Assembly (NCBI RefSeq): GCF_023546765.1
Contig: NZ_CP097484.1
Location: 2,078,001 to 2,142,000 of the forward strand
Direction of reading: 5' to 3'
Length of the DNA: 64,000 nucleotides
From: Methylobacterium tardum
GTDB lineage: Bacteria; Pseudomonadota; Alphaproteobacteria; Rhizobiales; Beijerinckiaceae
In this document: piece by piece, positions 4,799 through 58,701 of the stretch
Layout: the number at the start of each line of letters is the position of its first letter
Position numbering within the stretch: the stretch's first letter is position 1
Made by a program: the position numbers and the translations under genes
Notes under the pieces: generated by a model
Told to the model about the DNA's origin: nothing
The model's input: only the letters and a program-made list of their open reading frames with translations
Databases searched by the model: none

Positions 4799-4858
4799 GG
4801 CGTGACCGGTCCTGATGTTCGTCGGCGAGGCCCGCGGACGGGACGCCGGCCGGCCGCC

Positions 4859-5340: not shown

Positions 5341-5354
5341 GGATCGTGTCCGGA

Positions 5355-8276: not shown

Positions 8277-8280
8277 GATG

Positions 8281-32862: not shown

Positions 32863-32870
32863 GGCGCCCG

Positions 32871-35800: not shown

Positions 35801-36038
35801 CCTCGGCTTCCTGCCCATGGCCCTCTCCACGAGCGCCGGGGCGGAGGTTCAGCGACCGCTGGCGACCGTGGTGATCGGCGGCCTGATCTCCGCGACGCTG
35901 CTCACCCTCGTCGTGCTGCCGGCGGTCTATCCGGTCGTCGCCGGCCTGCGCCTGCCCTTCGACCGCCGGTCCCTGCCCGCCTCCGACAGGACGGGCGAGA
36001 CGGTCAGGGCGCGGCATCGCGGGAACCTCGACGCCTGA
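32871..36038 (+). CDS. Heavy-metal RND efflux pump, CusA/CzcA family
   Basis: This 1,055-residue protein has twelve predicted membrane segments and two large periplasmic loops. It begins RRRFLVLVVALAAAAGGVAN and contains IDAVPDISPKQVMILTLSPG, then GLGPLEVERLVTFPVENAMA, both family hallmarks. In the proton-relay helix GAIDFGLIADGAVVMIENVL carries the two essential acidic residues. The C-terminal half has AIGFIATFGIAILNGVVLTS. It moves metal ions (Cu/Ag or Co/Zn/Cd) from periplasm to outside by proton antiport; the metal is not resolved by sequence. No outer-membrane CusC/CzcC gene is present nearby, unlike the standard order. ATG 32871 is preferred over TTG 32859. Confidence 0.95.
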   Translation: MRAWFALLIRRRFLVLVVALAAAAGGVANLDGLSIDAVPDISPKQVMILTLSPGLGPLEVERLVTFPVENAMAGAPALTGIRSTSRAGVSAVYVTFADGMPLAEARSQVFQRLPAAKSLMPAGIGDPQMGPMATGLGEIYQFELRGPAYTPMQLRRTLQWTIAPKLKLTSGIADVNIYGGEMPTYEVRVSADALRRYGVTLAQVFTALADNNAARGGAYIAHNDQQEVIRGLGLAKGPDDIAAIVVATGPGGVPVTLATLGQVVESPKVRLGAVTHDVAGETVVGIALMQVGANASAVVGEVKRTIDDLRPQLPPGMAIVPYYDRSALADRTIHTVAHNLLEGAVLVVVVLLLLLGDLRAGLIVAAAIPMSMLMAFAGMRLLGISGNLMSLGAIDFGLIADGAVVMIENVLRARGAHPDRPAHDLVRDAAAEVARPVMFAVAIIILVYVPILALQGVAGKMFVPMALTVILALGSALVVTLTLMPALAAIFLAGRGVGERETRLVHWVRGAYTPMLRAAERHAGLTVLATLALFAGSWVLATRLGGEFLPKLSEGSIVVTSEKLPGIDLSASLAAVTRIERVLKSFPEVKRVVSLTGSAEIPTDPMGVESTDSFITLTDPATWATADTQDGLVAAFDRRLKEEVPGVAYTFSQPIQMRMDDLLEGVRGDVAISLYGDDLTVLKETADAIVRTVSGIPGAADVKAEAQAGMPALAIQVDRAKAARYGINVSDVLDVVESLGGRTSGVVYGDDNAITEIVVRLDPADRSDIERIRALPVGRNEPGRAAGSRMMVPLALVASVDVASGPAQISRERLQRRISVQANVRGRDVRSFVEAARAAVDRQVTLPPRYSLVWSGQFQTLQEATARLSVVVPAALAAILVLLVVMFADIRLAGLIFLNVPIAATGGILALTLRDMPFSISAAIGFIATFGIAILNGVVLTSYIRDLEATGLAPREAATRAAGMRLRPVIMTALVAALGFLPMALSTSAGAEVQRPLATVVIGGLISATLLTLVVLPAVYPVVAGLRLPFDRRSLPASDRTGETVRARHRGNLDA

Positions 36039-36963: not shown

Positions 36964-39900
36964 TCAGGGCGTAAAACCGTAATAGTCGCGCATGAGGCTC
37001 TGGTACGCGGCGGCCTGGATCGGCCCGGAGAGCCGCCCGGTTTCCGAGATGTCGATGGTCAGCAGGCGGTCGTTGCAGGCGGCCGGGTCGGTGACCAGTG
37101 CGTAGGGCAGGCGGTGGCCGTTCGGGTAGGCGGAGAGCCGTTCGCCCTGCGCGCCGAGGTCGAAGGCCACCACCGGCAGGCCGGTGCGCAGAGCCAGTGT
37201 CAGCGTGTACGCGTACGTCTCCGGCCAGATCGACGGAAGCAGGATCAGGTCGGCTGAAATCTGGTTCACGAGGTCGAGGACCTCGTCGTCGTCCCAGTGG
37301 CGGTCGGTCTGGGCGATCTGGAGGGCCGCGCGTGCCGGCCGGTCGAGGGTCGTGTCGTCGGTGGAGTAGCATCCCGTCTCGGTGACCCCGGCGCGTTCCA
37401 GGCCGCCCGTGAGCGCCGGGTCGGAGAAGCCCACGATCGAGAACCGCAGCGGCAGATCCCGCTTGCGCGCATCCGTTGCCAGTGCCTGCAGCAGGAGCCC
37501 GCCTTCGGGCAGGTTGATGGCGCCGAGCACCGCGACCCGCCGGACGCGTCCGGGCCGCTGCAGGGTGGTGTCGCGCACCGTGCGCTCCGGCTCCAGATGC
37601 GGCCGCACCGTGATCGCCAGGTCCGGGTACACCCCCGGATCCGCGCCGCCGTGTCGGCGGACGGCGCAAACACCCGCGCCGCCCCGGCCAGGAACGCCCC
37701 GAACGCCGCCCGCCGCTCACCCGGATCCGGCTCCTCGAACCCCTCCGCATCCGCCGCCAGGCACGCCCGGCATTCGGCGACCGGCGCCAGGCCGCAATAG
37801 CGCCCGTCCGGCTGCACCAGGTGGTTGCGGTGGCAGACCGGCGAGTAGTCGTGCAGCGTCCAGGCATAGGGCCGGCCCGAGCCCGCCACCAGCTCCATCA
37901 GCGCCCGCGCCGCCGCCCAGCGCAGCCCCGCCAGCGAGTGCACGTGGATCAGGACCGGCGCCAGCGCCGCGATGAAGCCCGACACCGTCGCGGCGTCGCG
38001 CGGCAGGTACAGGCTGCCGAGGTTGGGCAGGTACAGGAACTCGGCGCCGCGGTAGGCGACCTGGACCTCGAGGTTGCGGGTCCGGTCGATCTGCAGCAGC
38101 ACCACCGACAGGCCCTCGGCCCGGGCCTTTGCGATCATGTCGTCGATGTGCCGCTGGATGCCCCCGCCCCAGCTGTGGGTCACGTACAGCAGCGCCCGGC
38201 CGGCGCAGTGCCGGGCCAGCCGGGCGAGGTCGAGGCGCGCCCGCCCGCCCCGGCCCGGATCGGCCTGGACGAACTGCCCGACACGCGCCGGGTAGTCGGG
38301 GTGCTTGGACAGCAGCGCCGCCTGGCCCTGGTCGTACTCGCCGCCCTCATCCAGCCCGAACGAGATCTGGCCGGCATGGTAGACGTAGACGTCCTCGGCG
38401 AGCAGGTTGACGAAGCCGGCCTTGGTGGCGCGCAGGCACCAGTCGTTCTCCTCGCCGTAGCCCTTGCCGAAGGCCTCGGCGTCGAGGGGGCCGACGGCGT
38501 CGAGCGCTTCGGCGGTCATGTACATGCAGAAGCCGACGCCGGTGGGCACGGGCACGGCGCGGCCGCGGTTGATCCGGGCGGCCAAGCGGTCGAGATCGGG
38601 CCGGTCGATCTCCAGCGGCATGGTGTTGTTGGCGTTGAAGCGCGGGTAGGAGCAGATCGTGGCGTTGTTGGACAGCGGCGTGACGCTGCCCACGCGCGGG
38701 CGGGCGGCGTCCGCGGGTTCAGCCTCGGGTTCGGCATCGGGCTCGGCATGGGCGACGAGGCGGTCGAGCCAGTCGCCGAAGACCTGGGCGTCGGAGTTGA
38801 GCAGGACGACGGCGCGGCCCTGGCGGAGGCTGAGGGCGCGGTTGACCGAGCGGACGAAGCCGAGGTTCTGCTCGTTCTCGGCGAGGTGGAACAGGCCCTT
38901 GCGGGCGAGGTCGGCCAGCTCGGCGGTGAGCTGCGGGTCGGGGGAGCGGTCGTTGACGGCCAGCAGGGTGAAGGGGGTTTGCTGCGGGGCCGACAGGCAG
39001 GCGTGGATGGCGCGCAGGGTCTCGCCGCGTCCCTTGTAGACGGGGACGATGACGACGACGCGGGCCTGAGCGATGGGCAGGGCTTGCGGCAGGCCGTCCC
39101 AGTCCTGGGCTGCGGGGGCGGTCATGGGCGGGGCGGTGCCCAGATCCTCGGGCGCGGCCAGCAGCCCGGCCGCCCGCCCGGTCCGGACGTAGTGCAGGAA
39201 CGGCGACTCCCCAGGACCCAACAGGTGACCGTAGGCCCGGCGGTAGAACCGGGTCACGAAGGCCTTGCTGGGATCGCGATCCTCTTCCTGTCCGTGCGAC
39301 AGGAAGTGCATGGCGGGACCGTTCTCGAACCCGCGCGTGTCGGGGTAGCGCTTCAGGTACCAGGGGGCGTCGAAATAGGGCTCGATCAGCCGCGCCTGCT
39401 CCATCAGCTCCGCATCTTCCTCAGGCGGCGGGCTGCCGTTGCGCGGATCGAAGGCGGGATCCGTGAGGTCGACGCCGCGAAGCAGCGCCGTGGCGAGGAA
39501 GTGGACGAAGGGGGCGAGACCCGTCGCCTCGACGTGGGGGTGATGCGCCCGGTAGGCCCAGCCGTTGAAGTCGGGCCGTGGGTTTCGGCCCCTGCGCCAG
39601 CCGGTGTCGCAATAGTCGCGCACCGCGTCGGCCTCCGCGGGCAGCCCGTAGCGTGCCCGGTAGAAGCCGTGGTCGAAATGCCCCGCCACCAGCCGCGCCT
39701 GCAGGTCCAGGAACGCCGCCCGCTCCACCGGCTCGGCCCCGATCGCCCCCAGCCAGCCCGTGTCCTCGACAGGCGCCCGCGCCGGACGCAACCCGCACAC
39801 CCGCAGCAGCGCCGCCAGCGTCGAGCGCCCCGGCCCCGGATCGCGCAGCTCCCGCCAGCCCAGACCGGCAAAGTGCAGGTACGGCTCACGCCCGCCCACA

Positions 39901-40898
39901 TCCGGGTAGGTCGCCCGGTACCAGGCCTCATCCACCGCCGGCACGTTCAGCCGCTCCGGCTCGGCAAACGGCTCCCGCCCGGACAGACGCGTCTCGGCCA
40001 CGTAGCGGAAGAACGGGTCGTCCGCGACCGCCCGGCTGCCGGCGCGCGCCTGCACGAAGCCGGCCGGGTCGAAGTCCGGACGCGGGCTGACGAGCCGCCG
40101 CCAGCCCTCCGCCACGTAGAAGCGCAGCAGCTCCGCGTCCGTGGCGCCGGCCCACGCCTCCGGCTGCGCGGCGTTCAGGCGCCGCCGGTAGTGGGCGGCG
40201 TCGAAATAGGGCGCGAGCGTCGCGACCCGCAGCGCCAGCGCCTCGGCCGGCTCCGGCCGGGCGGCTCCGCCGTGCAGGACGTAGTGCACCAGCGGGTTCT
40301 GGGTGGCGTAGGTGATCCCGCGGGTCAGGCAGTAGGCCAGGGTGTCGAAGCGGGGCGACGGCTCGCGGCCCTCGCGCCAGCCCGAGGCCATGTAGTGGTC
40401 GACCGGATCGACGCCGGCTTCCCGCAGGTCGGGGTTGCCGGCGAGGTAGAACGGCCCGTCGGCGAGGCGGCGGGCGAGGCGCTGGACCTCGGCGGTGTCG
40501 GGCTTCGGCAGGGCCGCGCCCGTGTCCGCGCCGCCGGCCGCACCGGACCGGCGCCTGTGTGTCGAGAGGGCGTGCAGGAACGGGTTGATGCCGGCTTTGG
40601 CGAGATGGGGCCGGGCGGCGAGGTAGGCGGCGGAGGAGAAGTCGGGCCGCGGGTCGCGGCCCTCGCGCCAGCCCTGGACGAGGTAGTCGCGCACCGGATC
40701 GGCCGTGATCCCGTACCAGCTCGCGTAGAAGCCCGCGTCGAAAGACGGCGCCAGCGCCGCGATCTGCGCCTCCGCGGTGGCGAGGTCGTTCGCGGCCGGG
40801 AGGCCGCCGCGCGCTGCGAGCCGGACCAGCGGGTTGCTGCTCGCGCGGACGGAGCCCGTACCGGCCCAGCGGAGATACAGTCCGTAGAGCGTCCTCAA
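36964..40898 (-). CDS. Giant two-domain glycosyltransferase with N-terminal repeats (one -1 frameshift)
   Basis: The composite is about 1,311 residues. Residues 1-600 hold about six divergent repeats marked by GWREGRDPRPDF, SGWREGREP, GWRELRDP, GWRRGRNPRPDF and HGQEEDRDP, each after a YPDV-like segment. Residues 610-855 are a GT2 domain (RVVVIVPVYKGRGETLRAIH; NEQNLGFVRSVNRALSLRQG; VVLLNSDAQVFGDWLDRL; KGYGEENDWCLRATKAGF). Residues 900-1311 are a GT-B/GT4-like domain (ALLYVTHSWGGGIQRHIDDM; ILLPSIWPETYAYTLTLALR). The break at 37634-37640 is a G run one base short (RIR, then GVYPDLAITVRPHLEPE). It probably adds two sugars to a surface glycan. The start is TTG 40898 (uncertain). Transcribed alone, downstream of an acyltransferase gene. 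Confidence 0.85.
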
Positions 40899-41204: not shown

Positions 41205-41807
41205 TCAGATGAGGTCCGAGCGCCAGGTCACGTTCTCCCGCACGATACGCGCAGGATTTCCTGCGGCCACGCAATGGGGCGGCACGGTTCCGGTCACGAC
41301 CGCATGGGCGCCGACGATAGCGTTGTCGCCGATGACGGAGCCCTTGAGGAGCGTGGCCTGGTTGGCGATCCAGACGTGATGGCCGACGCGGACAGGCTTG
41401 GCTGGGTTCAGCCGCGCGCCGGTATCCAGGCTGACGACGGAGTGGAAGTCGCTCGTCGTCATCCACACACCGGAAGCGATCGAGCAGTTCGTCCCGATCT
41501 CGATCGTCTTCGCCTCGATGAGGTTGAGGTGGACCAAACCGGTGAAGCCCGTCCGGTCGCCGATGCTGAGCACCGAGCCCGGACCGATATAGATGTTGGC
41601 CATCGAGAGACGAACATCCTCCCCAACATCGAACCGGCAATTCGATTCGATGACGATGTGCATATCCTTGTCCGAAACGCAGCCTCTTCCGATGCGGACG
41701 TAATTGTTGCTGCCGTTTATGTATATCTTTCCGGCCTGGTTTTGCTGGTCGCGGACATCGATATCGATGACGTTATTTTCGCCTTTATCGAAGATGTTCA
41801 GCGACAT
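41205..41807 (-). CDS. Left-handed beta-helix acyl/acetyltransferase (CatB/WbbJ-like)
   Basis: This 200-residue protein is built of hexapeptide repeats (YIGPGSVLSIGDRTGFTGLV; EIGTNCSIASGVWMTTSDFH), then KPVRVGHHVWIANQATLLKG and VIGDNAIVGAHAVVTGTVPP with CVAAGNPARIVR at the end, the typical sugar O-acetyltransferase tail. The catalytic His is probably in TSDFHS. It transfers acetyl or another acyl group to a sugar hydroxyl, likely during surface-glycan synthesis. The frame opens at 42032 but ATG 41807 (MSLNIFDKGENN) begins the conserved part. It lies 300 bases upstream of the giant glycosyltransferase on the same strand. Confidence 0.85.
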   Translation of the reverse strand: MSLNIFDKGENNVIDIDVRDQQNQAGKIYINGSNNYVRIGRGCVSDKDMHIVIESNCRFDVGEDVRLSMANIYIGPGSVLSIGDRTGFTGLVHLNLIEAKTIEIGTNCSIASGVWMTTSDFHSVVSLDTGARLNPAKPVRVGHHVWIANQATLLKGSVIGDNAIVGAHAVVTGTVPPHCVAAGNPARIVRENVTWRSDLI

Positions 41808-42158
41808 ACTGTTCTCTGTGGGGTTGACGTCTGCGTCCCCGCGCGATGCGGTCTGTGCCGGCGCCCGGAGGGCCGCGCTTCGAGGCCGGGGAAGTAGCCC
41901 CGTCTTCTGCCGTGGCAGCCACGGGATCGGAGCGCTGTGATCGGAACCGTTGCCGCGCGACGCTACGCGAGTGCGTTCGAATCCGGTAGAGGTGTTTCCG
42001 GATGTCTCTAGGCCATGTAGCGCCGGCGTCACAACTCGCGCTGACGCCCACCGATTCTGCCTCCCGACAGAGTGGCAACAGGTCTGCCGCGTGTTGACGT
42101 CCGAAGGGGCCTATGACGTATGGCCGGCCTTGAGCGATCTTGAGGATGAGGCCATCCC
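41808..42158. promoter_or_regulatory. Divergent intergenic region
   Basis: These 351 bases separate the minus-strand acyltransferase from the plus-strand winged-helix-like protein. The acyltransferase frame is open through most of it but lacks conserved features. No inverted repeats or terminators were recognised. It presumably holds both promoters. Confidence 0.3.
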
Positions 42159-42695
42159 GTGGCTGAAGACAACACGCTGACAAAGGCTCTGGTCGACGTC
42201 AGGGCGCGCCGCGCGGCCCTGCAGAGCGATTACGATCGGATCGCGGCGGAGTTGACGAAGCTCCGCGCGGCAGAGGCCGCGCTGACCTCGATCGTGGAGG
42301 GCGTTCCGCTCGAGGAGACAGGGCATCCGCGTTCCTCGGAGGCCCCGCGGCCGACCGCCGGTGATCGCGCTGCGCCACAGCAGGGCGGACGGCGCGGCGC
42401 CCGCGGTCCGCGGGCGAACTCGGCCAAGGGCCGGTTGAAGGGGCTGCTCGGCAGCGCGGGTCCGCAGGGCCTGTCGCATGCCGAGATCGCCGAACGGCTC
42501 CCCGACGTCGCACCCAACACCCTCAACACCTATCTGAGCATGATGGTGACGGGCGGCGAAGCGGTCCGGAACGGCGACTTCTTCACCGCCGCACTGGGCT
42601 CGGACCGGGAACCCGACGCGGCCGCGGGCGAGGCTGATCCGGCCGAGGACAGGTCTGCCGAGGACGAGCCTCACAGCGACGCCGCGGCCGAGTGA
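42159..42695 (+). CDS. Hypothetical coiled-coil / winged-helix-like protein
   Basis: This 178-residue protein has a coiled coil (about 5-47: KALVDVRARRAALQSDYDRI, then AAELTKLRAAEAALTSIVEG), a Pro/Gly/Arg-rich linker, and a compact domain at about 90-150 (AKGRLKGLLGSAGPQGLSHA; EIAERLPDVAPNTLNTYLSM; GEAVRNGDFFTAA) that looks like a small winged helix. The tail is acidic and disordered. This layout suggests a DNA-binding or replication-associated protein, but no family is assigned. It starts at GTG 42159. It lies next to the acyl cassette, so a local regulatory role is possible but unproven. Confidence 0.6.
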   Translation: MAEDNTLTKALVDVRARRAALQSDYDRIAAELTKLRAAEAALTSIVEGVPLEETGHPRSSEAPRPTAGDRAAPQQGGRRGARGPRANSAKGRLKGLLGSAGPQGLSHAEIAERLPDVAPNTLNTYLSMMVTGGEAVRNGDFFTAALGSDREPDAAAGEADPAEDRSAEDEPHSDAAAE

Positions 42696-42731: not shown

Positions 42732-44165
42732 TCAGGCCGTCGCCGACATCTGCCGGATGATCGGCAGCATCAGCGCGCCGGGGGAAGCGGCCGGGACGGG
42801 GAAGATCGTGGCCGTCTGATCCGTCCGCACCCGCGGCAGGCGCTCGATCACGGTCCGCAGGTTCGGGATCGTCCGCGCCATCGTCGCGGCGAGGGTCTCG
42901 CCGGCACTCTTCGCCATGACGTATTCGAGCGTGTCGCGGGGCGCCTCGTCGATGGCCGTGGTCGAGGGATAGAAGGCCGCCACCGCATCCCGGCGTCCGA
43001 GGCAGAACAGGCTCAATTCGTAGAAGGCGTAATTGTAGACGCGCATCATCTCCTCGAAGCAGGACGGCTCGAACGGCGCGCGCTTCTGGCGGAAGATGCG
43101 GGGTGTCGCGAAATGGTAGAGCTGGGATGGGCGCATCGCCAGGGCATCGAGCTGGGCGGCGACCGGACCCGCGGCGTCGTAGCGGAGCACCTGGCAGCGG
43201 CCGCCGCCGTCCCGGATCTCCCGGGCGACCGCCTCCGCCTCCTCGACGCCCGACGCGTAGGTGATGCAGACCGCACCGCCCCCCGCGGCGATCAGCACGG
43301 CCGTCGCCGCGCCCAGGCCCCGCGAACCGCCGATGACGAGGGCGGACACCTCGGAGAACGCGCCCGGCTGCACCAGCGCGGCGATGTCCTGCAGGCTCTC
43401 CTGCTCGACCGGGCGCGGACGGACGAAGGCTTCGACCCGCGCGGTGAGGCCCGGCCCCTTCGCCTCGAGGGTTACCGATTGCAGCATCGGCTGGAACCGC
43501 TTGACCGCGTAGGCAAGGCGCGATCCGTGCGCCGCGTCGGTGACCGTCACGTCGATCTTCGAGAGGATCGAATGCAGCCCGGGCACGAACATGCCGACGA
43601 GGGTCGAGAGGCCACCCAGCCCGGCGACGCGGGCGGGGCCGATCGCCTGCGCGAGCCGCGGCGCCAGCGCGGCGATTGCCGCAGGATCGGGAAGCCGGAA
43701 CGTGCCCGCCAGACTGGCGATCGTCGCCGGATCGATCACGTCCGGCGCGTCCGGGATCTCGGTCGGTGCCGCATCGACCGTCTCGGCCGGTGCCCGCTCG
43801 GACGCGAATGTTCCCTGGATCGTGACCGTACGGACTCCATCGACCGACACCGAGAGGCGCATCTGCCGCGCATCCGCGTCGTGGACCGTGACCTCGGCCC
43901 GATCTCCGACCAGCACGAAGCGCTCGAACCGCATCTGCAGCGTCGCGAGCCGCGCGAGCGGCTGCTTGTCCGCGCAGGCATCCAGGGCCCAGAGGGCGGC
44001 ATGAACGCCGTGAACGGCCCTGTCGCCGGCGAGCGTCCGGCGGGCCACGCGCGCATCCATGTGCATCGGGTTCACGTCGCCGGTGGCCCGCGCGAAGGCG
44101 ATCTGATGCGCCTCGGTCCAGACCCGCGTCATCGCGGGGGGATCGTCCGACCCGGGTCCGTTCAT
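42732..44165 (-). CDS. MaoC-like hydratase fused to a short-chain dehydrogenase/reductase
   Basis: This 477-residue fusion has an N-terminal hot-dog MaoC domain (about 15-115) with AFARATGDVNPMHMD and RAVHGVHAALWALDA, the (R)-hydratase pattern with Asp/His catalytic residues. The C-terminal SDR domain (about 265-470) has a Gly-rich cofactor site (SALVIGGSRGLGAATAVLIA) and a Tyr-x-x-x-Lys pair in LEYVMAKSAGE. Together they could dehydrate and reduce an acyl-thioester. The start is ATG 44165, with AGGAG 7 bases upstream; the first Met of the open frame (44180) overlaps this ribosome site. It is divergent from the FkbH-ACP-KAS genes and is probably part of the same cassette. Confidence 0.85.
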   Translation of the reverse strand: MNGPGSDDPPAMTRVWTEAHQIAFARATGDVNPMHMDARVARRTLAGDRAVHGVHAALWALDACADKQPLARLATLQMRFERFVLVGDRAEVTVHDADARQMRLSVSVDGVRTVTIQGTFASERAPAETVDAAPTEIPDAPDVIDPATIASLAGTFRLPDPAAIAALAPRLAQAIGPARVAGLGGLSTLVGMFVPGLHSILSKIDVTVTDAAHGSRLAYAVKRFQPMLQSVTLEAKGPGLTARVEAFVRPRPVEQESLQDIAALVQPGAFSEVSALVIGGSRGLGAATAVLIAAGGGAVCITYASGVEEAEAVAREIRDGGGRCQVLRYDAAGPVAAQLDALAMRPSQLYHFATPRIFRQKRAPFEPSCFEEMMRVYNYAFYELSLFCLGRRDAVAAFYPSTTAIDEAPRDTLEYVMAKSAGETLAATMARTIPNLRTVIERLPRVRTDQTATIFPVPAASPGALMLPIIRQMSATA

Positions 44166-44373
44166 CGGGAAGCTCCTCATCCGCGGCCTCGGCCCCGACG
44201 GGGCCGCGACCGAGCGCCCGCGTGCAGCACGGAGGCACCGGCGCGAACCGCTTCGCCCCTTGCTTTATGACAGGGGATCTCGCAAGAGGGCGGCACGCGC
44301 ACGCACGGAAAGGGGCCGGTCGACCGCCGGAGGGCAGGCATCCACCGGGACGCCGCAGGAACCGGTATCGAGG

Positions 44374-45981
44374 ATGACCACGGCTCGCGCCCTGTCGATC
44401 GGCTTCGTCGGAAACGTCGTCACCAACCCGTTCGGGAAAGTGTCCGGCCGCCTCGCGGACCTCGCGGACGCGAGCTGCGAACACTTCCCCATCGGGCAGA
44501 TCGAGCAGGTCCTGGCGGGGCCGGCCTCCGTCGACGTCCTGATCGTGCATCTCGACCATCGCTGGTTCTTCGACGTCGCCCCGGATGCCGGCGCGGTCGC
44601 CCGCGCGCGGGCCCTCGCCGAGCTGGTCTCGGCCCGGCTCGAGCGCGGCCCCGGCACCGTCATCCTCAACACGGTGCCGTTCGTGCCGGTCTCGTCGGTG
44701 GAGAGCGATCTCCACGATCAGCTCGAAGCCCTGGCCCGGGTGAACGCGGTGCTGTTCGACCTCGCCCGGTCGCAGGAACGGGTCAGCGTCGCCGACGCGG
44801 CAGGCGCCCTCGCGATCCTCGGCTTCGCCAACGCGTTCCGCGAGCGGAACCGCCTCCTCTACCAGATGCCCTACGCCCCGGCCGCCGTGGACGCGCTGGT
44901 GGAGCGCTACGCGGACGCCGTCGCGGTCCGGCTGCGGGCGCGCCGGAAGGTCGTGGTGGTCGACGCCGACAACACGCTCTGGGGCGGCGTCGTGGGCGAG
45001 GACGGCGTGGAGAACCTCGAGGTCGACACCGACTATCCGGGGATCGTCCACACGCAGCTCCAGCGCCAGCTGCTGCGCCTGAAGAGCCTGGGCATCCTGC
45101 TCTGCGCGGTGACCAAGAACAACGACGAGGATTTCCGCTCGGTCTTCGCGCAGCGCGCGATGCCGCTGCGCCTCGACGATTTCGTGGCCTACCGCAGCAA
45201 CTGGTCGGAGAAGAGCGACAACATCCGCGAACTCGCCGAGACGCTCAATCTCGGCCTCGACAGCTTCATCTTCCTCGGCGACAACCCCTTCGAGATCGAG
45301 GAGGTCCGGGCGCGGCTGCCCGGCGTCGAGTGCCACCTGTTCGACCGGACGCGTCCGGAGCTGGCCCTCGCGCTCCTCGACGGGATCGCGTCCCTGCGGG
45401 CCCGGAACGTCACCGCCGAGGATCTGGCCAAGACCGAGCAGTACCGGGGCGAGGCGCAGCGGCAGGAGCTGCAGCGCTCGGCCGCCTCGATGGAGGATTA
45501 CCTCGCTTCTCTCGACATCCGCGTGCACATGGCCCGCAACAATCCGGGCTCGTTACGGCGGGTCACGCAGCTGATCAACAAGACCAACCAGTTCAATCTC
45601 ACCACGCGCCGCTACACCGAGGACGAGGTCGCCTCCGCGATGCGGCAGGGCAGCGTCTATGCGGCCCGGGTGGTCGACCGGTTCGGCGACATGGGTGTCG
45701 TCGGGGTCGCCATCGTCCGGGACGGCGCGCTCGAGACCTTCCTGATGAGCTGCCGGGCGCTTGGGCGCCGCATTGAGAGCCAAGTCCTGCGCTACATCTG
45801 CCAGCAGGAGGCCGATCCGGCGCTGCGGGCCCACTACCGCCCGAGCCCGAAGAACCGCATGGTCGAGACCTTCCTGGACGAGAACGGGTTCGCGCTCATC
45901 GGCTCTGGCCCCGAGGGCAAGGACTATCGACTGACCCGAGGACCGGATGACACCGCCTACATCCACATCGTCGCGGAGTGA
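44374..45981 (+). CDS. FkbH-like HAD-superfamily protein (glyceryl-ACP-forming type)
   Basis: This 535-residue protein has an N-terminal SGNH-like region, then the HAD motif KVVVVDADNTLWGGVVGEDG (nucleophile Asp near 195), followed by ILLCAVTKNNDEDFRSVF and FIFLGDNPFEIEEVRARLPG. A C-terminal GNAT-like domain has LINKTNQFNLTTRRYTEDEV and VYAARVVDRFGDMGVVGVAI. In polyketide pathways FkbH proteins take 1,3-bisphosphoglycerate and load a glyceryl unit on an acyl carrier protein (established knowledge). The frame opens at 44260; ATG 44374 begins conserved sequence. Its end overlaps the next ACP gene by 35 bases, a strong sign of a functional pair. Confidence 0.92.
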   Translation: MTTARALSIGFVGNVVTNPFGKVSGRLADLADASCEHFPIGQIEQVLAGPASVDVLIVHLDHRWFFDVAPDAGAVARARALAELVSARLERGPGTVILNTVPFVPVSSVESDLHDQLEALARVNAVLFDLARSQERVSVADAAGALAILGFANAFRERNRLLYQMPYAPAAVDALVERYADAVAVRLRARRKVVVVDADNTLWGGVVGEDGVENLEVDTDYPGIVHTQLQRQLLRLKSLGILLCAVTKNNDEDFRSVFAQRAMPLRLDDFVAYRSNWSEKSDNIRELAETLNLGLDSFIFLGDNPFEIEEVRARLPGVECHLFDRTRPELALALLDGIASLRARNVTAEDLAKTEQYRGEAQRQELQRSAASMEDYLASLDIRVHMARNNPGSLRRVTQLINKTNQFNLTTRRYTEDEVASAMRQGSVYAARVVDRFGDMGVVGVAIVRDGALETFLMSCRALGRRIESQVLRYICQQEADPALRAHYRPSPKNRMVETFLDENGFALIGSGPEGKDYRLTRGPDDTAYIHIVAE

Positions 45982-46258
45982 GAGCGCCGCCGCCGCGGCC
46001 CGCGCCACCCTGGATCGCCTCGCCGACACCTGGGGCCGCCCGGAGCTGGGCGCGCTCGGGCCCGAGGACGACCTGTTCGACAAGATCGATTCCTTCGCGG
46101 TGGTCGAGTTGCTGCTCGAGACCGAGTCCGAGGTCGAGAAGGCCGTGGGCCGCTACGTCCCGCTGGCCGATGAGAGCATCCTCGACAGCACGCGCTCGCC
46201 GCTGCGCCGGATCCAGAGCTGGTTCGACTACGTGGCGGAAGCCGTGAACCGTGGCTGA
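45947..46258 (+). CDS. Acyl carrier protein (first of two)
   Basis: This 103-residue protein has the carrier-protein fold pattern: LGPEDDLFDKIDSFAVVELL, then LETESEVEKAVGRYVPLADE. The Ser in IDSF corresponds to the phosphopantetheine site (usual motif DSL, here DSF). It is acidic and helical. The gene overlaps the FkbH-like gene by 35 bases and KAS III by 8, so all three are coupled. It is the likely acceptor of the acyl unit loaded by the FkbH-like protein. Confidence 0.85.
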   Translation: MTPPTSTSSRSESAAAAARATLDRLADTWGRPELGALGPEDDLFDKIDSFAVVELLLETESEVEKAVGRYVPLADESILDSTRSPLRRIQSWFDYVAEAVNRG

Positions 46259-47288
46259 GCTCCGGTTCCGGAACGCGGGCCTCGCCGGCCTCGTCACCAC
46301 GGTCGGCGGCCGGGCGCTGGCCTTCGACGCGGAGGCGGCGGATCTCGGGATGGCGCCGGAGGAGGCCGAGCGGCTCAAGCGCGCCATGGGGTTCACCACG
46401 CGCCACGTCGTCGTGCGCGACGCCACCACGACGGCCGACCTCTGCCTGCATTCCGCCCGGCACCTCCTCGACGGCCTCGGCCTGCGGCCGGAGGATCTCG
46501 ACGGGCTGATCCTGGTCACCCAGACGCCGGATTACAGCTCGCCCTCGACGGCGATCGGCCTGCAGCACCGGCTCGGCCTGCGCACCGACACGCTCTGCTT
46601 CGACATGCGGCTGGGCTGCAGCGGCTTCGTGTACGGCCTCTCGGTCGCCTACAGCCTCGCCGAATCCGGGCTGAGGCGGATCCTGCTCTGCGTCGGCGAC
46701 GTGGCGAGCCGGATGGTCGCCAAGGACGACCGGGCCATCACCCCCATCATGGGCGATGCCGGCGCCGCCGTGCTGATCGAGCGGCGCGCGACCGAGAGCG
46801 TGTTCCAGCTCCACAGCGACGGGTCCGGCGAGAAGGCCCTGTTCATCCCGCATAGCGGCCTGCGCGCCGATGCCGAGGACCGCGACAAGCCCGCCTCCAT
46901 GCAGATGGACGGTGCGCAGGTGTTCAACTTCACACTGAAGCGCGTGCCGTCCCTGATCACCGACATCCTGGCGGCCGCCGACCTGCGGCCGGAGGAGCCG
47001 GACTTCTACGTCCTGCACCAGCCGAACAAGTATATCCTGAAGAACCTGCAGCGGCGCCTGAGCCTCGACGACGGCAAGCTTCCCTCGGGCACGCAATCCG
47101 TCTACGGGAACCAGAACTCGGCCTCGATCCCGGGCACGATCTCGGGTTTCCTGGCGGAGGATTTCTCACACCGGCCCTTGCGCGCGGTGCTGGCCGGATT
47201 CGGCGTGGGGCTGAGCTGGGGTGCGTGCGCGATCACCACCGACCGGATCTACGCACCGCCCGTCCTGAAGTTCGAGGAGACCGCGTGA
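46251..47288 (+). CDS. 3-oxoacyl-ACP synthase III-like (KAS III/FabH family)
   Basis: This 345-residue thiolase-fold enzyme has the catalytic triad in family positions: Cys near 123 in DMRLGCSGFVYGLSVAYSLA, His near 256 in YVLHQPNKYILKNLQR, and Asn near 287 in YGNQNSASIPGTISGFLA. The Cys-His-Asn set means it should start or condense acyl chains. LILVTQTPDYSSPSTAIGLQ is typical of FabH relatives in secondary metabolism. It starts at GTG 46251 inside the ACP gene end; its stop overlaps the next ACP gene (TGATG). It is likely specific to this cassette rather than housekeeping fatty-acid synthesis. Confidence 0.93.
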   Translation: MAELRFRNAGLAGLVTTVGGRALAFDAEAADLGMAPEEAERLKRAMGFTTRHVVVRDATTTADLCLHSARHLLDGLGLRPEDLDGLILVTQTPDYSSPSTAIGLQHRLGLRTDTLCFDMRLGCSGFVYGLSVAYSLAESGLRRILLCVGDVASRMVAKDDRAITPIMGDAGAAVLIERRATESVFQLHSDGSGEKALFIPHSGLRADAEDRDKPASMQMDGAQVFNFTLKRVPSLITDILAAADLRPEEPDFYVLHQPNKYILKNLQRRLSLDDGKLPSGTQSVYGNQNSASIPGTISGFLAEDFSHRPLRAVLAGFGVGLSWGACAITTDRIYAPPVLKFEETA

Positions 47289-47515
47289 TGACCGAGGCTG
47301 GGTTCCTGGACGAGCTCGGCGCGATCCTGGATCGGCCGGGGCCGCTCGCGCGCGGCCAGAAGCTCGGCGAGATCGAGACCTTCGACTCTCTCGGCATCCT
47401 CAACATCATGGCGCTGTTCGACACGCTGGGCCTGGAGGTCGAGCCGTCGCGGATCGCGGAGGCCGCGACCACCGACGATCTCCTCGGCATCGCCGGCGCG
47501 AAGCTGCAAGCCTGA
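47288..47515 (+). CDS. Acyl carrier protein (second of two)
   Basis: This 75-residue small acidic protein has the canonical carrier motif: GQKLGEIETFDSLGILNIMA, with the phosphopantetheine Ser in DSL, then LFDTLGLEVEPSRIAEAATT. It overlaps the KAS III stop by one base. Having two separate carriers suggests one holds the starter or glyceryl unit and the other the extender (inference). It is shorter than the first carrier, of standard ACP size. Confidence 0.85.
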   Translation: MTEAGFLDELGAILDRPGPLARGQKLGEIETFDSLGILNIMALFDTLGLEVEPSRIAEAATTDDLLGIAGAKLQA

Positions 47516-47525
47516 GGCCGGGACC

Positions 47526-48248
47526 ATGGCGGAGGCCGAGGGGCACATCCTCGTCGTCGGCGCGAGCAGCGGCATCGGACGGGCCGTGGCCGAGCGGTTC
47601 GCCCAGCAGGGGGCGGTCACCGCCCTCGCCCGTCGGACGGACCGCTTGGCCGAACTCGCCGCGGCCGGGATCGCCACCATCGCGGCGGACGTGACCGATC
47701 TCGCGGCGATCGGCGGCGTGCTGCAGGCGGCCGTCGCCGAGCGTGGCCCGCTCACGGGCCTCGTCTACTGCGCCGGAGTCCAGATCATCAAGCCGATGCG
47801 CAGCCTCAGCGTGGACGAGGTCGAGCGGCTCTACAAGACGAACCTCGTCGCCCCGACCCTGTTCGCCGCCGCCTTCGGCAGCGCCCGGATCTCGACCCGC
47901 GACGCCGTGTTCTGCGCCGTGTCGTCGGTGGCCGCCCAGCGCCCGGAGCCGGCCATCGTGCCCTATTCCGCCTCCAAGGCGGGGCTCGACGCGCTGATCC
48001 GGGGGCTGGCCCGCGAACTCGCCCCCCGGCGGGCGGTCGCCGTCGCGCCGGGCTGGCTCGACACCGAGATGACCCAGGCCCATGCCCGCATGTACGGCGC
48101 GGAGTTCAAGGAGGCGCTGGAGAAGCGCAGCCCCGCGGGCGCCGCGACCGTCGAGTCGGTGGTCGAAGCCATCGCGTTCCTGATGTCGCCGCAGGCGCGG
48201 CACGTGACCGGCGAGATCCTGCGGGTCGACGGCGGGGCGACGCTGTGA
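47526..48248 (+). CDS. FabG-like short-chain dehydrogenase (3-oxoacyl-ACP reductase type)
   Basis: This 240-residue classical SDR has the cofactor motif VGASSGIGRAVAERFA, NAG-like YCAGVQIIKPM (Cys replaces the usual Asn), Ser-Tyr-Lys in SSVAAQRPEPAIVPYSASKA and APGWLDTEMTQAHARM. It ends with the FabG-style HVTGEILRVDGGATL. The expected job is NADPH-dependent reduction of a 3-ketoacyl-ACP to the 3-hydroxy form, after the KAS III condensation. It lies 10 bases after the second ACP. Confidence 0.92.
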   Translation: MAEAEGHILVVGASSGIGRAVAERFAQQGAVTALARRTDRLAELAAAGIATIAADVTDLAAIGGVLQAAVAERGPLTGLVYCAGVQIIKPMRSLSVDEVERLYKTNLVAPTLFAAAFGSARISTRDAVFCAVSSVAAQRPEPAIVPYSASKAGLDALIRGLARELAPRRAVAVAPGWLDTEMTQAHARMYGAEFKEALEKRSPAGAATVESVVEAIAFLMSPQARHVTGEILRVDGGATL

Positions 48249-48261
48249 CGGACAGAGTTCG

Positions 48262-48921
48262 GTGACGCGCGCGACCAAGCGCCTGGCCCTGATCGGCGGC
48301 GGCGGCTTCTCCAAGGAGATCGCCGAAGTCGCGCAGATGCGCGGCTACACGGTGGAGGCGACCTACTCGAGCCAGCCGACCGCCCAGGTCGGATCCTATC
48401 GGGGCTACCTCGACGAGCTGCTGGCCGATCGCGCGGAGTTCGACGGTGTGGCCCTCGCGGTGGGCGGCGTGAGCCGGGCCGCGATCCAGGCGCGCGCCGA
48501 GATCATCGCCTGGCTCGACCGGCATGCGCTCCCCTGCCCGCCCCTGGTGTCGCCGCATGCGATCGTCAGCCAGGGCGTCGCGCTCGGCGCGGGAGCGTTC
48601 GTCGCGCATGGGGTGATCGTCAACGTCGATGCCCGGTTGGGCCGGTTCTGCGTCGTCAACACCGGCGCGATCATCGGCCACGATGCGGCGATCGGCGACA
48701 ACACGACGATCTCGCCCGCGGCCTTCATCGGCGGCCGCTGCGCGATCGGTGCGGACAGCCTGGTCGGTCCCCTCGCCAAAGTGCTCCAGGGTCTGAAGAT
48801 CGGCGAGCGGGCCATGATCGGCATGGGCTGCACGGTGCTGCGCACCCTGCCCGACGATGCCGCGGTCTGGCCTCGGCCCGACAACCCGGTCGCCGCGGCG
48901 GATCGGCGCTCCGTCGATTGA
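48262..48921 (+). CDS. NeuD/PglD-like sugar acyltransferase
   Basis: This 219-residue protein has an N-terminal Rossmann-like part (RLALIGGGGFSKEIAEVAQM) and a left-handed beta-helix (SPHAIVSQGVALGAGAFVAH; VNTGAIIGHDAAIGDNTTIS; AAFIGGRCAIGADSLVGPLA), ending GMGCTVLRTLPDDAAVWPRP. This is the NeuD/PglD layout, in which an amino or hydroxyl of a nucleotide-activated sugar is acylated. The catalytic His is in IIGHDA. It starts at GTG 48262, 13 bases after the SDR. As the last gene, it could hand the cassette acyl group to the sugar; that is inference. Confidence 0.9.
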   Translation: MTRATKRLALIGGGGFSKEIAEVAQMRGYTVEATYSSQPTAQVGSYRGYLDELLADRAEFDGVALAVGGVSRAAIQARAEIIAWLDRHALPCPPLVSPHAIVSQGVALGAGAFVAHGVIVNVDARLGRFCVVNTGAIIGHDAAIGDNTTISPAAFIGGRCAIGADSLVGPLAKVLQGLKIGERAMIGMGCTVLRTLPDDAAVWPRPDNPVAAADRRSVD

Positions 48922-54055: not shown

Positions 54056-55702
54056 TCAGCGCCGCCGGCTGCCGAGAAGGCGCAGCGCGCGCGCGAAGGG
54101 CGTCCGCGGGCGGGCTCGCTCCAGGGCGCCACGGATCTCGGTGGCCAACCGCGCCGCGACGATCTCGCGGGCCGGATCGTCGTAATGGACGATGTCGTAG
54201 AAGGTCCCCTCCTCCCGGTCGCGGAAGATGCCGCTGAGGTCCAGCGCCGTGAAGGTGCGCCGATACGGGCGCCGGGCCGCGAGCTGCGCCGTGAAGGCCT
54301 CCAGCTTGGTGTACTGGCGGTCGAGATAGGCCAGGAACGCCCCCGAGGCGACGCCGCGCTCGACCTCGGTGAGGTGGCGCTTGCGCAGGATCGTCGGCTG
54401 CAGCACGCTGACGATCGGCACCCGGTGATCGTGCGACAGCTTGGTCAGGCGGTGCGCGGCGCGCTCGTACTGGTGCACGACCGCGTCCTCCCAGCCCGGG
54501 CTCTGCCAGCCGACTTCCGCGCGCAGCCGCTTCAGCTCCCCGTAGATCAGCGTGATCAGCGCGTCGTAGGACAGACCGTCCTCGCGCGCCCGGGGGTCGT
54601 GCGTGTCGAAGAAATGATCATAGAGCCGCTCGGTGATGAAGGCGTTGTAGGGGTAGCCGGGCCGGGGATCGTAGGTCCAGGGCTGGAACAGGTCGGTGCT
54701 GCCGCTGACCACGATGAGCGCGTCCGGGCTGTAGTTCATCAGACGCGACCAGATCAGGTGCGTCATCTGCGTGAGGCAGCTCGACATCACCCCGAAATTG
54801 TAGACCTTCGCGCCCGCCAGCCCATCCGCCCGCAGGATCCGCTCGATGCGCCCCGGGAGGGTCTTGGCGATGTCGCCGCCGTCGATGGTGGTCGAGTCGC
54901 CGACGACCAGGATCCGGGTCTCACCGGCCGGCTTTCGCTCCACGATCGGCGCCGCGTTCAGGAAGCCGTTGGCGTCGAACGGGACGCCGTAATGGCTCGC
55001 CCCCGGCTTGCCGGCGAACTGGATGAACGGGCTCGGATAGCGCGTGTTCGAGTCGAGATAGCCGAAATGATGCAGGAACTTGCGCCGTCGCGCGGCATCC
55101 TCGCTCTCGGGCGGGGCCCAGATCTGCTCGACGCCCGGGGCGGTCAGGGCCGCCATCATCGTGGCCCGGAGCGCCGCCTCGCCGGCCGCATTGAGCCGGA
55201 TTCCGTCGTCGCTGAACGCGGGCCGGAGCGCGCCCGTCTCGGTGGCCAGGACGGGATCGTAGTCGATGAACTGCGCGCCGTAGGCCGGAGCGTGCTCGCG
55301 CAGCCACGCATTGACCTGCCCGATGCGCGCGGCCGGCAGCCCGGCCGTGGCCGGGGCGGCCGGATCGACCGGCGGGATCGAGCCGACCCAGGTCCGCACG
55401 TAGAGGTCGCGGGCGTCCTGCAGCATGGCGGCGATGTCGGCCGTGATCTGCTCCAGCGATGACGCGCCGTCGCCGCTGAGGATGTCGTCGCGGCCGGCGA
55501 TCAGGTGAAGGCCCCGGGCACCGTAGAGGGCGATGTCGGAGCGAAGCCGCCGCGCCATGTCCCGGGTCGATTGCCCGGCAATCCCGCGCGCGACCGTCTG
55601 AGGCCCGGAAAAGAGTTGTGGGGCCCCGGCCGTCAGCCCCGCCGTCACCGAATCGCCGAAGAACAGGATCGGCCCGAACGGGAAGAGCGGCGTGTCTGAC
55701 AT
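54056..55702 (-). CDS. Tandem SGNH/GDSL hydrolase-like protein
   Basis: This 548-residue protein has two SGNH-type units. The first (1-235) has the nucleophile motif PILFFGDSVTAG (Ser18) and a block V-type FSDDGIRLNAAGEAALR, in which the usual catalytic DxxH is not obvious. The second (about 255-540) has RILVVGDSTTIDGGDIAKTL (Ser near 266), DALIVVSGSTDLF and the C-terminal FYDIVHYDDPAREIVAARLA with Asp-x-x-His. SGNH enzymes are esterases that often deacetylate glycans. No signal peptide, so it is probably cytoplasmic or acts on lipid- or nucleotide-linked sugar. ATG 55702 is chosen because upstream sequence is not conserved-looking. Its gene follows the discoidin-domain gene by 34 bases. Confidence 0.8.
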   Translation of the reverse strand: MSDTPLFPFGPILFFGDSVTAGLTAGAPQLFSGPQTVARGIAGQSTRDMARRLRSDIALYGARGLHLIAGRDDILSGDGASSLEQITADIAAMLQDARDLYVRTWVGSIPPVDPAAPATAGLPAARIGQVNAWLREHAPAYGAQFIDYDPVLATETGALRPAFSDDGIRLNAAGEAALRATMMAALTAPGVEQIWAPPESEDAARRRKFLHHFGYLDSNTRYPSPFIQFAGKPGASHYGVPFDANGFLNAAPIVERKPAGETRILVVGDSTTIDGGDIAKTLPGRIERILRADGLAGAKVYNFGVMSSCLTQMTHLIWSRLMNYSPDALIVVSGSTDLFQPWTYDPRPGYPYNAFITERLYDHFFDTHDPRAREDGLSYDALITLIYGELKRLRAEVGWQSPGWEDAVVHQYERAAHRLTKLSHDHRVPIVSVLQPTILRKRHLTEVERGVASGAFLAYLDRQYTKLEAFTAQLAARRPYRRTFTALDLSGIFRDREEGTFYDIVHYDDPAREIVAARLATEIRGALERARPRTPFARALRLLGSRRR

Positions 55703-55736
55703 TTCTGCGCCCATGCCGTCGCGCGCTGCCGCGGCC

Positions 55737-56981
55737 TCAGCGCGCCGCGAAGATCTCGATGCCGTCGAGGTGCAGGTACTGCTCCTCGTCGAGATCGATC
55801 TTGAGGTAGCGGAACCGCGCGTTGTCGAACCGCAGATGGAGAGGCCAGCCGGGATGGCAGTGGGCATCCACGGCGTCGAAGACGAGGCGGTAGGCGTCCG
55901 CGGTCTCGCCCAGCCAGACCCGCATCAGCTGCGCCCGCTCGCTGAGCTGCCCCCAGCGATTGTAGATCCGGATCTCCGAGACCCGCTCCACCGCGCCGAG
56001 GTCGAGGACGAACCAGGGGTCCCGCTCCAGAGCCGTGTGGAAGAAGAACGACGGGTCGCCGGTGGTGCGCGTGCCGTAGACACCCGTCGTGCCGGACCAG
56101 GGCGAGGCGGAACTCGCCGTCCAGGTCTTGCCCAGCGCGATGTTGTCGGAGGGGCGGGTCGCCACCAGCGTGTCCGTCTCGAGCTCCTCGATCAGCGTCC
56201 GGATCTGCTTCGAGGGCTGCCGCAGCGGCGGGATCTCCAGGTCGAGCTTGTAGATCAGGTTCGACAGGATGCTCTGATCGAAGCGGTGGTCGGCGAAGCC
56301 GTCGAGGTCGGGCAGACCCATCTGGTTGGGGCTGTCGGTGACGACCCGCGGGTCTTCCGCGTAGCGCAGCCACTCGGCGACGAGGTGGCGCGTGGCCGGA
56401 CTCACCATGAAGGCGATCCAGGTGGCCTGGATCTGGTCGGCCTCCCAGTAGCGCTCCGCGTCGCAGTCCATGAGCACGAAGCAGTCGCGCTTGGTCCAGA
56501 CCCGCTGCGGCCGGCCGTGGAGCACGCCGACCGCCACCCGACGCCCGGACCCGGCGAGCCAGGTCAGGAGCGGCGCAACCGGCGGCAGCGGGTCGTCGCC
56601 GACCGCCTGCATCCCGGTATCGGTGAAGACGATGAAGTCGCCGTCGCGCCGCCCCATCAGGGCTTCCGCGATGATGTAGGGCTTCCAGGCCCAGTTCCCG
56701 GCGCCCCGGGACCGGTCGAGGATCTCCCGGTGCGCCCGGTAGAACGGCGTCTCGCGGAGCCGGTCCGGGGACCAGCTCTCGATCGTGTCGAAATCGCCCG
56801 TGACCGCGGCCGCGGCGACCAGCCGGCGCTGGCTCTCGACGTAATGGTACTTCGCCGCGAAGCTGACCAGGGTGGTGTGGCGGGAGCGGAGGCGCCGCCG
56901 CTGCATCATCAGCACCTCGGCCCGGTGCGTCGCGAAGGCGTTGACGCGCTGGGCTTCCGATGACGGGTCGGCGCTGGCCAA
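55737..56981 (-). CDS. Putative glycosyltransferase with C-terminal discoidin (F5/8C) domain
   Basis: This 414-residue protein has an N-terminal region resembling bacterial capsular glycosyltransferases (RAHREILDRSRGAGNWAWKP, then YIIAEALM; FIVFTDTGMQAV; RDCFVLMDCDAERYWEADQI). The C-terminal discoidin-like beta-sandwich (about 284-414) has NIALGKTWTASSASPWSG, WFVLDLGAVERVSEIRIYNR and FRYLKIDLDEEQYLHLDGIE. The start is TTG 56981: an excellent GGAGGAGAG ribosome site lies 6 bases (from its GGAGG core) upstream, and an intergenic hairpin (57024-57045) lies before it. The open frame itself runs to 57038. Discoidin domains usually bind carbohydrate. Confidence 0.75.
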   Translation of the reverse strand: MASADPSSEAQRVNAFATHRAEVLMMQRRRLRSRHTTLVSFAAKYHYVESQRRLVAAAAVTGDFDTIESWSPDRLRETPFYRAHREILDRSRGAGNWAWKPYIIAEALMGRRDGDFIVFTDTGMQAVGDDPLPPVAPLLTWLAGSGRRVAVGVLHGRPQRVWTKRDCFVLMDCDAERYWEADQIQATWIAFMVSPATRHLVAEWLRYAEDPRVVTDSPNQMGLPDLDGFADHRFDQSILSNLIYKLDLEIPPLRQPSKQIRTLIEELETDTLVATRPSDNIALGKTWTASSASPWSGTTGVYGTRTTGDPSFFFHTALERDPWFVLDLGAVERVSEIRIYNRWGQLSERAQLMRVWLGETADAYRLVFDAVDAHCHPGWPLHLRFDNARFRYLKIDLDEEQYLHLDGIEIFAAR

Positions 56982-57023
56982 ATCTCTCCTCCGGCGGAAC
57001 GGCTGGGCGCTTGTCACCGGTTT

Positions 57024-57045
57024 TCCCGCCTTCGGCAAGGCGGGA
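57024..57045 (-). promoter_or_regulatory. Intergenic stem-loop between two discoidin-domain genes
   Basis: A perfect 9-bp stem (TCCCGCCTT/AAGGCGGGA) closes a 4-base loop. It lies right after the 57054 stop and before the TTG start at 56981. On the minus strand it is followed by AAAAC rather than a U-tract, so it may be a processing or mRNA-stability site rather than a terminator. Confidence 0.5.
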
Positions 57046-57053
57046 CGGCCGGC

Positions 57054-58436: not shown

Positions 58437-58701
58437 CAAATCGCGCCCGAGCCTTCCCGCCAGGATTTCGTGCCGAGCCCTCCGAAACGCGGGCGGGGCC
58501 GTCGGCGTCGCGAGGTGTAGCTGGCCGCAGCCGACTTCTCCACCCGCCTGGGACGACGAGTCCCTACAGGATCAGATCCCCCGATCCGCGCGCATGCGCG
58601 GACGGCGTCGGATGTCGACGTGAGGCCCCGCGCGGCGGCGGCGGACACGGGATCCGGTCCGCCGCGCGTCGTCTGCTGAGCCTCAGCGTACGGCCTGAGC
58701 C

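Follow-up and report, generated by a model that had tools for sequence, protein, structure and literature searches.

A 64-kb stretch of the Methylobacterium tardum genome (the window; C1:2078001-2142000 of a 6.94-Mb genome in two contigs, with close protein relatives in Methylobacterium) carries a seven-gene cassette that looks like two joined half-systems with partly separate histories. One comprises KAS III, an acyl carrier protein (ACP), a FabG-type reductase and a NeuD-type acyltransferase; the other comprises FkbH, a further ACP and a fusion of a MaoC dehydratase to a short-chain dehydrogenase/reductase (SDR). The cassette probably builds an unusual small hydroxy-acid on its carrier proteins from a glycolysis intermediate, and we see about an even chance that it makes a short polyhydroxy-acyl group, attached as an amide to an amino sugar in a glycan of the surface or the flagellum. 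The Pseudomonas-type half is known, and its union with an FkbH starter module looks new. If true, central carbon metabolism would be tied directly to glycan decoration via a polyketide-type starter module, a defined acyl group would be predicted, and many "FkbH-like" genes of polysaccharide loci would find an explanation in the FkbH-ACP-MaoC/SDR module. A description of the module was not found in the literature on FkbH with flagellin glycosylation or polysaccharides, in a search that had most subscription journals outside its coverage.

Two half-systems in one cassette

The initial annotation had described a single, self-contained cassette, tightly overlapping and divergent at one point, with an intact Cys-His-Asn triad in KAS III. 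The seven genes are real where it placed them, as confirmed from open reading frames (ORFs) and family scans, with third-position GC of coding type and with the catalytic residues kept except at position 302 of FkbH. The triad and the packing were borne out as well: FkbH and ACP1 overlap by 35 nt, ACP1 and KAS III by 8 nt, and KAS III and ACP2 by 1 nt (from the ATG start), while MaoC/SDR is transcribed divergently from FkbH. The notion of a single unit gave way to that of two apparent modules.

At least 319 relatives of the MaoC/SDR fusion were confirmed, with one genome scanned per species, and the loci of the best 80 were compared; 40 of these extend 8 kb or more on both sides. FkbH was found in 63 of the 80 loci, ACP in 55, MBOAT in 23 and KAS III in 7, the last three counted with profiles that were built for this analysis partly from members of the same loci. 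FkbH and ACP occur without KAS III in 44 loci, 15 of which also have MBOAT. The median distance between MaoC and FkbH is 2.1 kb, and FkbH is present in 35 of the 40 loci with long flanks. Because the fusion travels with FkbH and ACP and not with KAS III, it is taken to act on the FkbH-loaded C3 unit. The initial idea that MaoC dehydrates the extended chain is thereby disfavored, as its usual partners, FkbH and ACP, make the C3 unit the likelier substrate. The module is found mostly in metagenome-assembled genomes (MAGs) and isolates of Pseudomonadota, Acidobacteriota, Chlorobiota, Bacteroidota, Planctomycetota, and others.

Recurrent neighbors of the fusion include MBOAT, a GDP-mannose-dehydratase-like SDR, a glycosyltransferase, a polysaccharide deacetylase, UDP-glucose dehydrogenase, DegT, Antibiotic_NAT, Acyl_transf_3, and a Polysacc_synt protein, with an AlgX-like SGNH protein in locus L045. 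By neighbor clusters, whose family labels each rest on one scanned member, a sugar or glycosyltransferase family occurs in 37 of the 80 loci, an acyltransferase family in 36, and at least one of the two in 56. A family of the Antibiotic_NAT type (scanned member in L075; aminoglycoside 3-N-acetyltransferase-like) was observed in L047, L068, L075, L086, L090, and L095, five of these six loci having FkbH; it is perhaps another acyl route.

All seven cassette genes were matched in four Methylobacterium loci (L020-L023) and in a Bacteroidetes MAG (L067). In the latter, a 347-amino-acid (aa) ORF that matched no family comes after the cassette, then NeuB and a NeuC-type epimerase, and the identity to the window proteins is 56 % for KAS III, 38 % for FkbH, and 30 % for MaoC/SDR. 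MaoC/SDR and FkbH of this MAG are separated by a PhyH-type dioxygenase (L067:1612-2418) that might hydroxylate the acyl chain. A Chlorobiaceae MAG (L065) has, on one strand, the order Bac_transf-NeuD-ACP-KAS III-SDR-MaoC/SDR-ACP-FkbH-(129-aa ORF)-DegT.

A tree of MaoC/SDR was made by a quick method from 79 rows, after two with at most 440 aa had been removed from the 81. Of these 79 rows, 30 carried labels and served for counting group changes, the other 49 being unlabelled. The KAS III label needs four changes against the MBOAT-labelled rows, three of them forced by starred branches. These changes fit a repeated joining of modules; one gain with two losses would equally give three. Among contigs of more than 4.5 kb, 38 were common to the best 120 FkbH matches and the best 120 KAS III matches (106 and 79 contigs, respectively; shared contigs recognized by equal size only), as against 0-1 in 14 shifted controls, and FkbH and KAS III of these types are therefore considered to go together. 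At E ≤ 1e-80, KAS III was matched in its own genome only, both in the phylum sample (1/398) and in the class sample (1/385). In a family-wide search for MaoC/SDR (199 genomes, at most eight candidates each), the protein of the own genome was the sole full-length one among the matches listed, the rest being partial SDR or MaoC.

Enzymes and carrier proteins of the cassette

The features of the cassette and its surroundings are collected in Table 1.

Table 1 Cassette genes and neighboring features, in positions of the window
Feature	Position	Strand	Size and remarks	Evidence
MaoC dehydratase/SDR ketoreductase fusion	42732..44180	-	482 aa; relatives begin 5 aa later	PF01575; adh_short below cut-off
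FkbH-family HAD-IIIC protein, putative glyceryl loader	44374..45981	+	535 aa	TIGR01686
ACP1, carrier probably serving FkbH and MaoC/SDR	45947..46258	+		DSF-motif Ser; family profile
KAS III, VioS-like	46251..47288	+		PF08545, PF08541; C123/H256/N287
ACP2	47285..47515	+	start probably ATG 47288	DSL motif; family profile
FabG-type ketoreductase (SDR), VioR-like	47526..48248	+		PF13561 E=1.8e-40; FabG structures matched; S-Y-K kept
NeuD/PglD/VioB-family hexapeptide N-acyltransferase	48262..48921	+		TIGR03570; VioB/PerB nearest structures
Conserved neighbor, no family match (Pfam, NCBIfam)	42159..42695	+	178 aa	in 15/16 other cassette genomes
WbbJ/maltose-O-acetyltransferase-like hexapeptide protein	41205..42032	-		Hexapep 36.2 bits; NCBIfam WbbJ-like below cut-off; in 14/16 congeners
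Large GT2+GT4 glycosyltransferase	37266..40898	-	frame broken toward C-terminus	Pfam; in 14/16 congeners, several cut by contig ends

FkbH is the sole TIGR01686 match in the whole genome, with 269.7 bits against a curated cut-off of 146.65, and the MaoC/SDR fusion is the sole full-length protein of its own kind there. The start of FkbH is better placed at 44374, where its relatives begin. In FkbH, D197, D199, K280, D303, and C460 are present in all 64 aligned rows; residue 302, next to the invariant D303, is Gly here and Asp in 63/63 aligned relatives and in 16/16 congeners. The MaoC half of the fusion matches PF01575 with E=1.7e-11, the SDR half scores 24.0 bits for adh_short, under the cut-off of 26.6, and the profile of the fusion matched (R)-hydratases and FabG-type reductases in PDB. 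In its alignment of 81 rows, D35 and H40 occur in 79 (2 gaps), S406 and K424 in 81, and Y420 in 79, the remaining two having Phe. The roles of the HAD, MaoC, and SDR residues are those that we presume for these families. Sets A1 and A2 consisted of 22 and 20 chosen sequences, respectively.

The NeuD-like protein appears to be a borderline family member by its TIGR03570 score of 160.0 bits, 0.8 short of the curated cut-off of 160.8 (PglD_N 22.1 vs 23.4). The closest PDB structures are VioB 7txp and PerB 4ea7; in the alignment, the GHD motif of the NeuD-like protein places its His opposite a PerB His that is Asn in entry 4eaa. As NeuD is itself an acyltransferase, the initial remark that no acyltransferase for release is visible was beside the point.

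It is only at the level of family profiles that the two small proteins resemble carrier proteins. Taken singly, neither gave a Pfam or NCBIfam match at E ≤ 0.001, nor a Pfam match at E ≤ 5. The attachment Ser is present in 67/67 ACP rows (loci plus both window proteins), rows that were preselected by an ACP profile; the Ser of the ACP1 DSF motif falls in the common ACP Ser column. The ACP2-family profile matched 18 PDB sequences with a best E of 2.3e-5, 13 of them named acyl carrier protein; the other five were SDAP1, CurB (two), an uncharacterized protein, and a CRISPR subunit. With the ACP1-family profile, 45 of 47 PDB matches were named carrier proteins, the best E being only 0.0023, and the remaining two were D-alanine-poly(phosphoribitol) ligase subunit 2, which we take to be a D-alanyl carrier. 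Each of these two profiles includes one distant row from L065.

Conservation in Methylobacterium

A KAS III of the cassette type is present in 17 of 111 genomes of the genus, and the flanks of the 16 others were compared using tblastn with the window proteins. MaoC/SDR, FkbH, ACP1, KAS III, ACP2, and NeuD were found in 16/16 congeners and the FabG-type SDR in 15/16. NeuD is the most variable cassette enzyme, with 64-96 % identity in the congeners, and is followed by a DegT aminotransferase in 6/16. In G289, NeuD and DegT are followed by GT61 and GNAT genes and a second DegT; the first DegT of this genome, the only one scanned, scored 348 bits with the DesI model (cut-off 650; next model 205). 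DesI is a dTDP-4-keto-6-deoxyglucose aminotransferase.

The claim that a small hydroxyacyl group is made in an ACP-dependent way and passed by NeuD to an amino sugar is supported by the DegT, Bac_transf, and NeuB/NeuC-type neighbors in relatives and by the logic of viosamine synthesis discussed below. That the cassette lies in a surface-glycan region stood in part: GT2+GT4, WbbJ-like, and phosphomutase-like genes are near, whereas DegT-family sugar aminotransferases, with 10 places in the genome, have none in the window, and a scan of 29 window proteins named neither a flippase nor a polymerase, the remaining ORFs lying outside it.

Comparison with known systems

The published systems are compared here as far as the available parts of their accounts describe them. 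The viosamine island of P. syringae, with a counterpart in P. aeruginosa PAK, comprises vioA, vioM, vioT, vioS, vioB, vioR, and acp; in P. syringae the acyl group is 3-hydroxybutyryl on viosamine, and a vioR mutant lost the modified sugar (PMC3927599). Mutant evidence by mass spectrometry is given for vioR and vioM, and earlier mutants in vioA, vioB, and vioT are cited (PMC3927599). Like this island, the cassette combines KAS III, a small ACP, a 3-oxoacyl-ACP reductase, and a NeuD/VioB acyltransferase. Further likenesses are a very large glycosyltransferase (VioT of 1173 aa vs 1303-1431 aa in uncut congener copies) and the DegT gene beside NeuD in some congeners. The cassette differs in adding FkbH, a second ACP, and the MaoC/SDR fusion, and the window is without an aminotransferase of the VioA/DesI type. 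The likeness is drawn from gene layout, the direct sequence comparison being that of NeuD with VioB of PDB 7txp only.

In Flavobacterium psychrophilum, the O-polysaccharide genes wfpC-wfpG encode KAS-type synthases, an ACP, a reductase, and a PglD homolog, predicted to bring 3,5-dihydroxyhexanoyl to an amino sugar; the group was assigned by NMR and its biosynthetic route was predicted (PMC6519341). The chain is another one, and FkbH is not mentioned in the available part of the wfpC-wfpG account (PMC6519341). Flagellin glycosylation islands of Enterobacteriaceae and Aeromonas share ACP and 3-oxoacyl-ACP reductase genes with the cassette but have LuxE/LuxC and AMP-ligase genes instead, and the term FkbH is absent from both texts (PMC4875605, PMC7874193).

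An FkbH protein with a stand-alone ACP is also found in the glyceryl loading of tetronate and methoxymalonyl synthesis, with a FabH-like protein in tetronates (PMC7489565). Among the seven cassette genes, the acyl-CoA-type dehydrogenase and the O-methyltransferase of the methoxymalonyl pathway are both missing, and the cassette ends in NeuD, not in a polyketide. The flagellar glycan locus of C. jejuni resembles the cassette in having an fkbH-domain gene, cj1302, and a glyceric-acid-type group on a sugar; that sugar is pseudaminic acid, and the likeness is drawn from the gene family (PMC7099621). The expectation of similar sets in glycosylation islands was thus upheld for KAS III with ACP (PMC3927599) and for cj1302 of C. 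jejuni (PMC7099621); FkbH was not found described for the P. aeruginosa a-type island in the available accounts.

Proposed pathway and alternatives

The first step would be the transfer of the glyceryl unit of 1,3-bisphosphoglycerate onto ACP1 by FkbH, as its family suggests. The MaoC half could then dehydrate glyceryl-ACP1 at the 3-hydroxyl of the 2,3-dihydroxypropionyl group to the pyruvyl enol, and the SDR half could reduce this to lactyl-ACP1. This conversion, suggested by the chemistry and by co-occurrence, falls a little short of an even chance; otherwise the starter would stay glyceryl. KAS III would condense the C3 starter with malonyl on ACP2, adding two carbons, and the FabG-type SDR would reduce the 3-oxo group to give 3,4-dihydroxypentanoyl-ACP or its trihydroxy analogue. 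NeuD would finally use this acyl group to N-acylate a nucleotide-activated amino sugar; to judge from the neighboring genes, the acceptor is perhaps of the viosamine type in relatives carrying the DesI-like aminotransferase. The predicted product is a 3,4-dihydroxypentanoyl amide, with a trihydroxy or a hydroxybutyryl amide as alternatives.

More generally, it is tentatively proposed that FkbH, ACP, and MaoC/SDR form a widespread stand-alone module making an activated lactyl (or pyruvyl) thioester from 1,3-bisphosphoglycerate. Unrelated acyltransferases (MBOAT with AlgX-like partners, Acyl_transf_3, Antibiotic_NAT, NeuD) would use this thioester for glycan decoration, and in Methylobacterium it would prime KAS III to give a dihydroxypentanoyl amino sugar; as a whole, this proposal has somewhat more against it than for it. 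In the BryA-type loading of bryostatin, FkbH, dehydratase, ketoreductase, and carrier form one starter module thought to yield lactyl. The cassette differs in having separate proteins, in glycan loci.

Several points weigh against the pathway proposed for the cassette. The product and the acceptor are predicted from the genes, and the glyceryl-to-lactyl step would follow from chemistry and from the bryostatin analogy, for which no supporting passage was found in the bryostatin literature. A DH-MT-FkbH-ACP module of the oocydin pathway is considered nonfunctional, according to the available part of the account (PMC4552970). FkbH was not found in 17 of the 80 MaoC/SDR loci, 12 of which have less than 8 kb on one side and five of which do not. 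The KAS III of the window shares only 31 % identity with that of L065 and 27 % with that of L035, and these two are therefore regarded as other types. Profile support for ACP1 is weak, and Gly302 of FkbH may weaken metal binding in this strain. One congener (G274; L152:8208-8586) has the cassette without the FabG-type SDR, ACP2 standing directly before NeuD, a gene order that would predict a different acyl group. To the lack of DegT genes in the window is added the absence, from the genome as a whole, of an ortholog to the DegT of the congeners, the best identity being 34 % among 8 of its 10 DegT-like places.

An unlikely alternative is a plain viosamine-type pathway, in which KAS III would use acetyl-CoA and malonyl-ACP2, FabG would form 3-hydroxybutyryl, and NeuD would transfer it, while FkbH, ACP1, and MaoC/SDR would make a separate glyceryl or lactyl group to be placed elsewhere, for instance by the WbbJ-like hexapeptide protein. 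The presence of two ACPs and the retention of the hexapeptide neighbor in most congeners would suit such a division, and in P. syringae N-(3-hydroxybutyryl)viosamine is made via VioS, VioR, VioB, and ACP, with no FkbH among the seven island genes named in the available text (PMC3927599). It is opposed by the tie of this KAS III type to FkbH on the 38 shared contigs and by the overlap of FkbH, ACP1, and KAS III in one operon.

That the glyceryl group stays glyceryl, with KAS III extending or NeuD directly transferring a glycerate-derived group and MaoC/SDR acting late or elsewhere, is rather improbable. FkbH proteins have been described as forming glyceryl-ACP (PMC7489565, PMC8949500), and flagella of C. 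jejuni 11168 carry dimethylglyceric-acid sugars that are missing in strain 12664, in which cj1302 is a pseudogene (PMC7099621). The C. jejuni evidence is a correlation only, since these sugars are also missing in strain 12661, said to be without cj1301, and are lost in a cj1295 mutant (PMC7099621, as far as the available text goes). The 44 loci in which MaoC/SDR accompanies FkbH and ACP without KAS III argue instead that the C3 unit itself is likely altered.

Decay or silence of the cassette in this strain is quite improbable. It is suggested by Gly302, which stands alone among the aligned sequences and congeners, and by the large GT2+GT4 glycosyltransferase, the frame of which changes near residue 1094 compared with three relatives of 1315-1339 aa, through either a strain-specific break or a sequencing error. 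In HAD enzymes, metal binding may persist with a Gly-Asp form of the motif, and the other catalytic residues are kept. The ratio of nonsynonymous to synonymous substitution (dN/dS) of the cassette genes against four of the 16 congeners ranges from 0.10 to 0.54, and 23 of the 26 values do not exceed 0.26. In this comparison, the window sequences of FkbH and ACP2 included 38 and 20 additional codons upstream, respectively, and just two congeners were used for ACP2. Relative to the nearest congener, dN/dS is 0.15 for FkbH, 0.13-0.22 for the other cassette genes, and 0.54 for ACP2 (ORF including its 20 extra codons). The values for the glycosyltransferase are 0.39-0.53, out-of-frame tail included.

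A tetronate-like condensation of glyceryl-ACP with a beta-ketoacyl thioester by KAS III, as in the tetronate glycerate-utilization operon, to which FkbH, ACP, and a FabH-like protein belong as well (PMC7489565), is very improbable given NeuD inside the operon, the sugar aminotransferases that adjoin it in relatives, and the fact that no polyketide synthase was named among the 29 window proteins scanned.

Other genes in the window

A flagellin gene (2592-3821) lies about 39 kb from the cassette, within a region on the minus strand (2592-9069) that encodes flagellin, FliP, FlgH, FlgI, and an FlgE/F/G-type rod protein; two more flagellin-type genes are found elsewhere in the genome. The flagellar genes of the window were unmatched in the flanks of the 16 congeners (about 6-21 kb per side; 45 % identity, 40 % coverage). 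The idea of a conserved flagellar linkage was dropped on this ground.

The true start of the WbbJ-like hexapeptide gene is probably internal, as its relatives are mostly 200 aa long. A scan for promoters and terminators gave no promoter-like site and one terminator-like site, no excess over shuffled sequence. Upstream of the glycan genes, a heavy-metal RND pump of the CzcA/CusA type (32859-36038, plus strand) is accompanied by an adaptor (31996-32862). The minus strand at 54056-58439 encodes a two-stretch protein of the GDSL/SGNH-lipase type along with two that match F5/8 type C below the cut-off; these are possible candidates for carbohydrate-active or acyl-processing functions.

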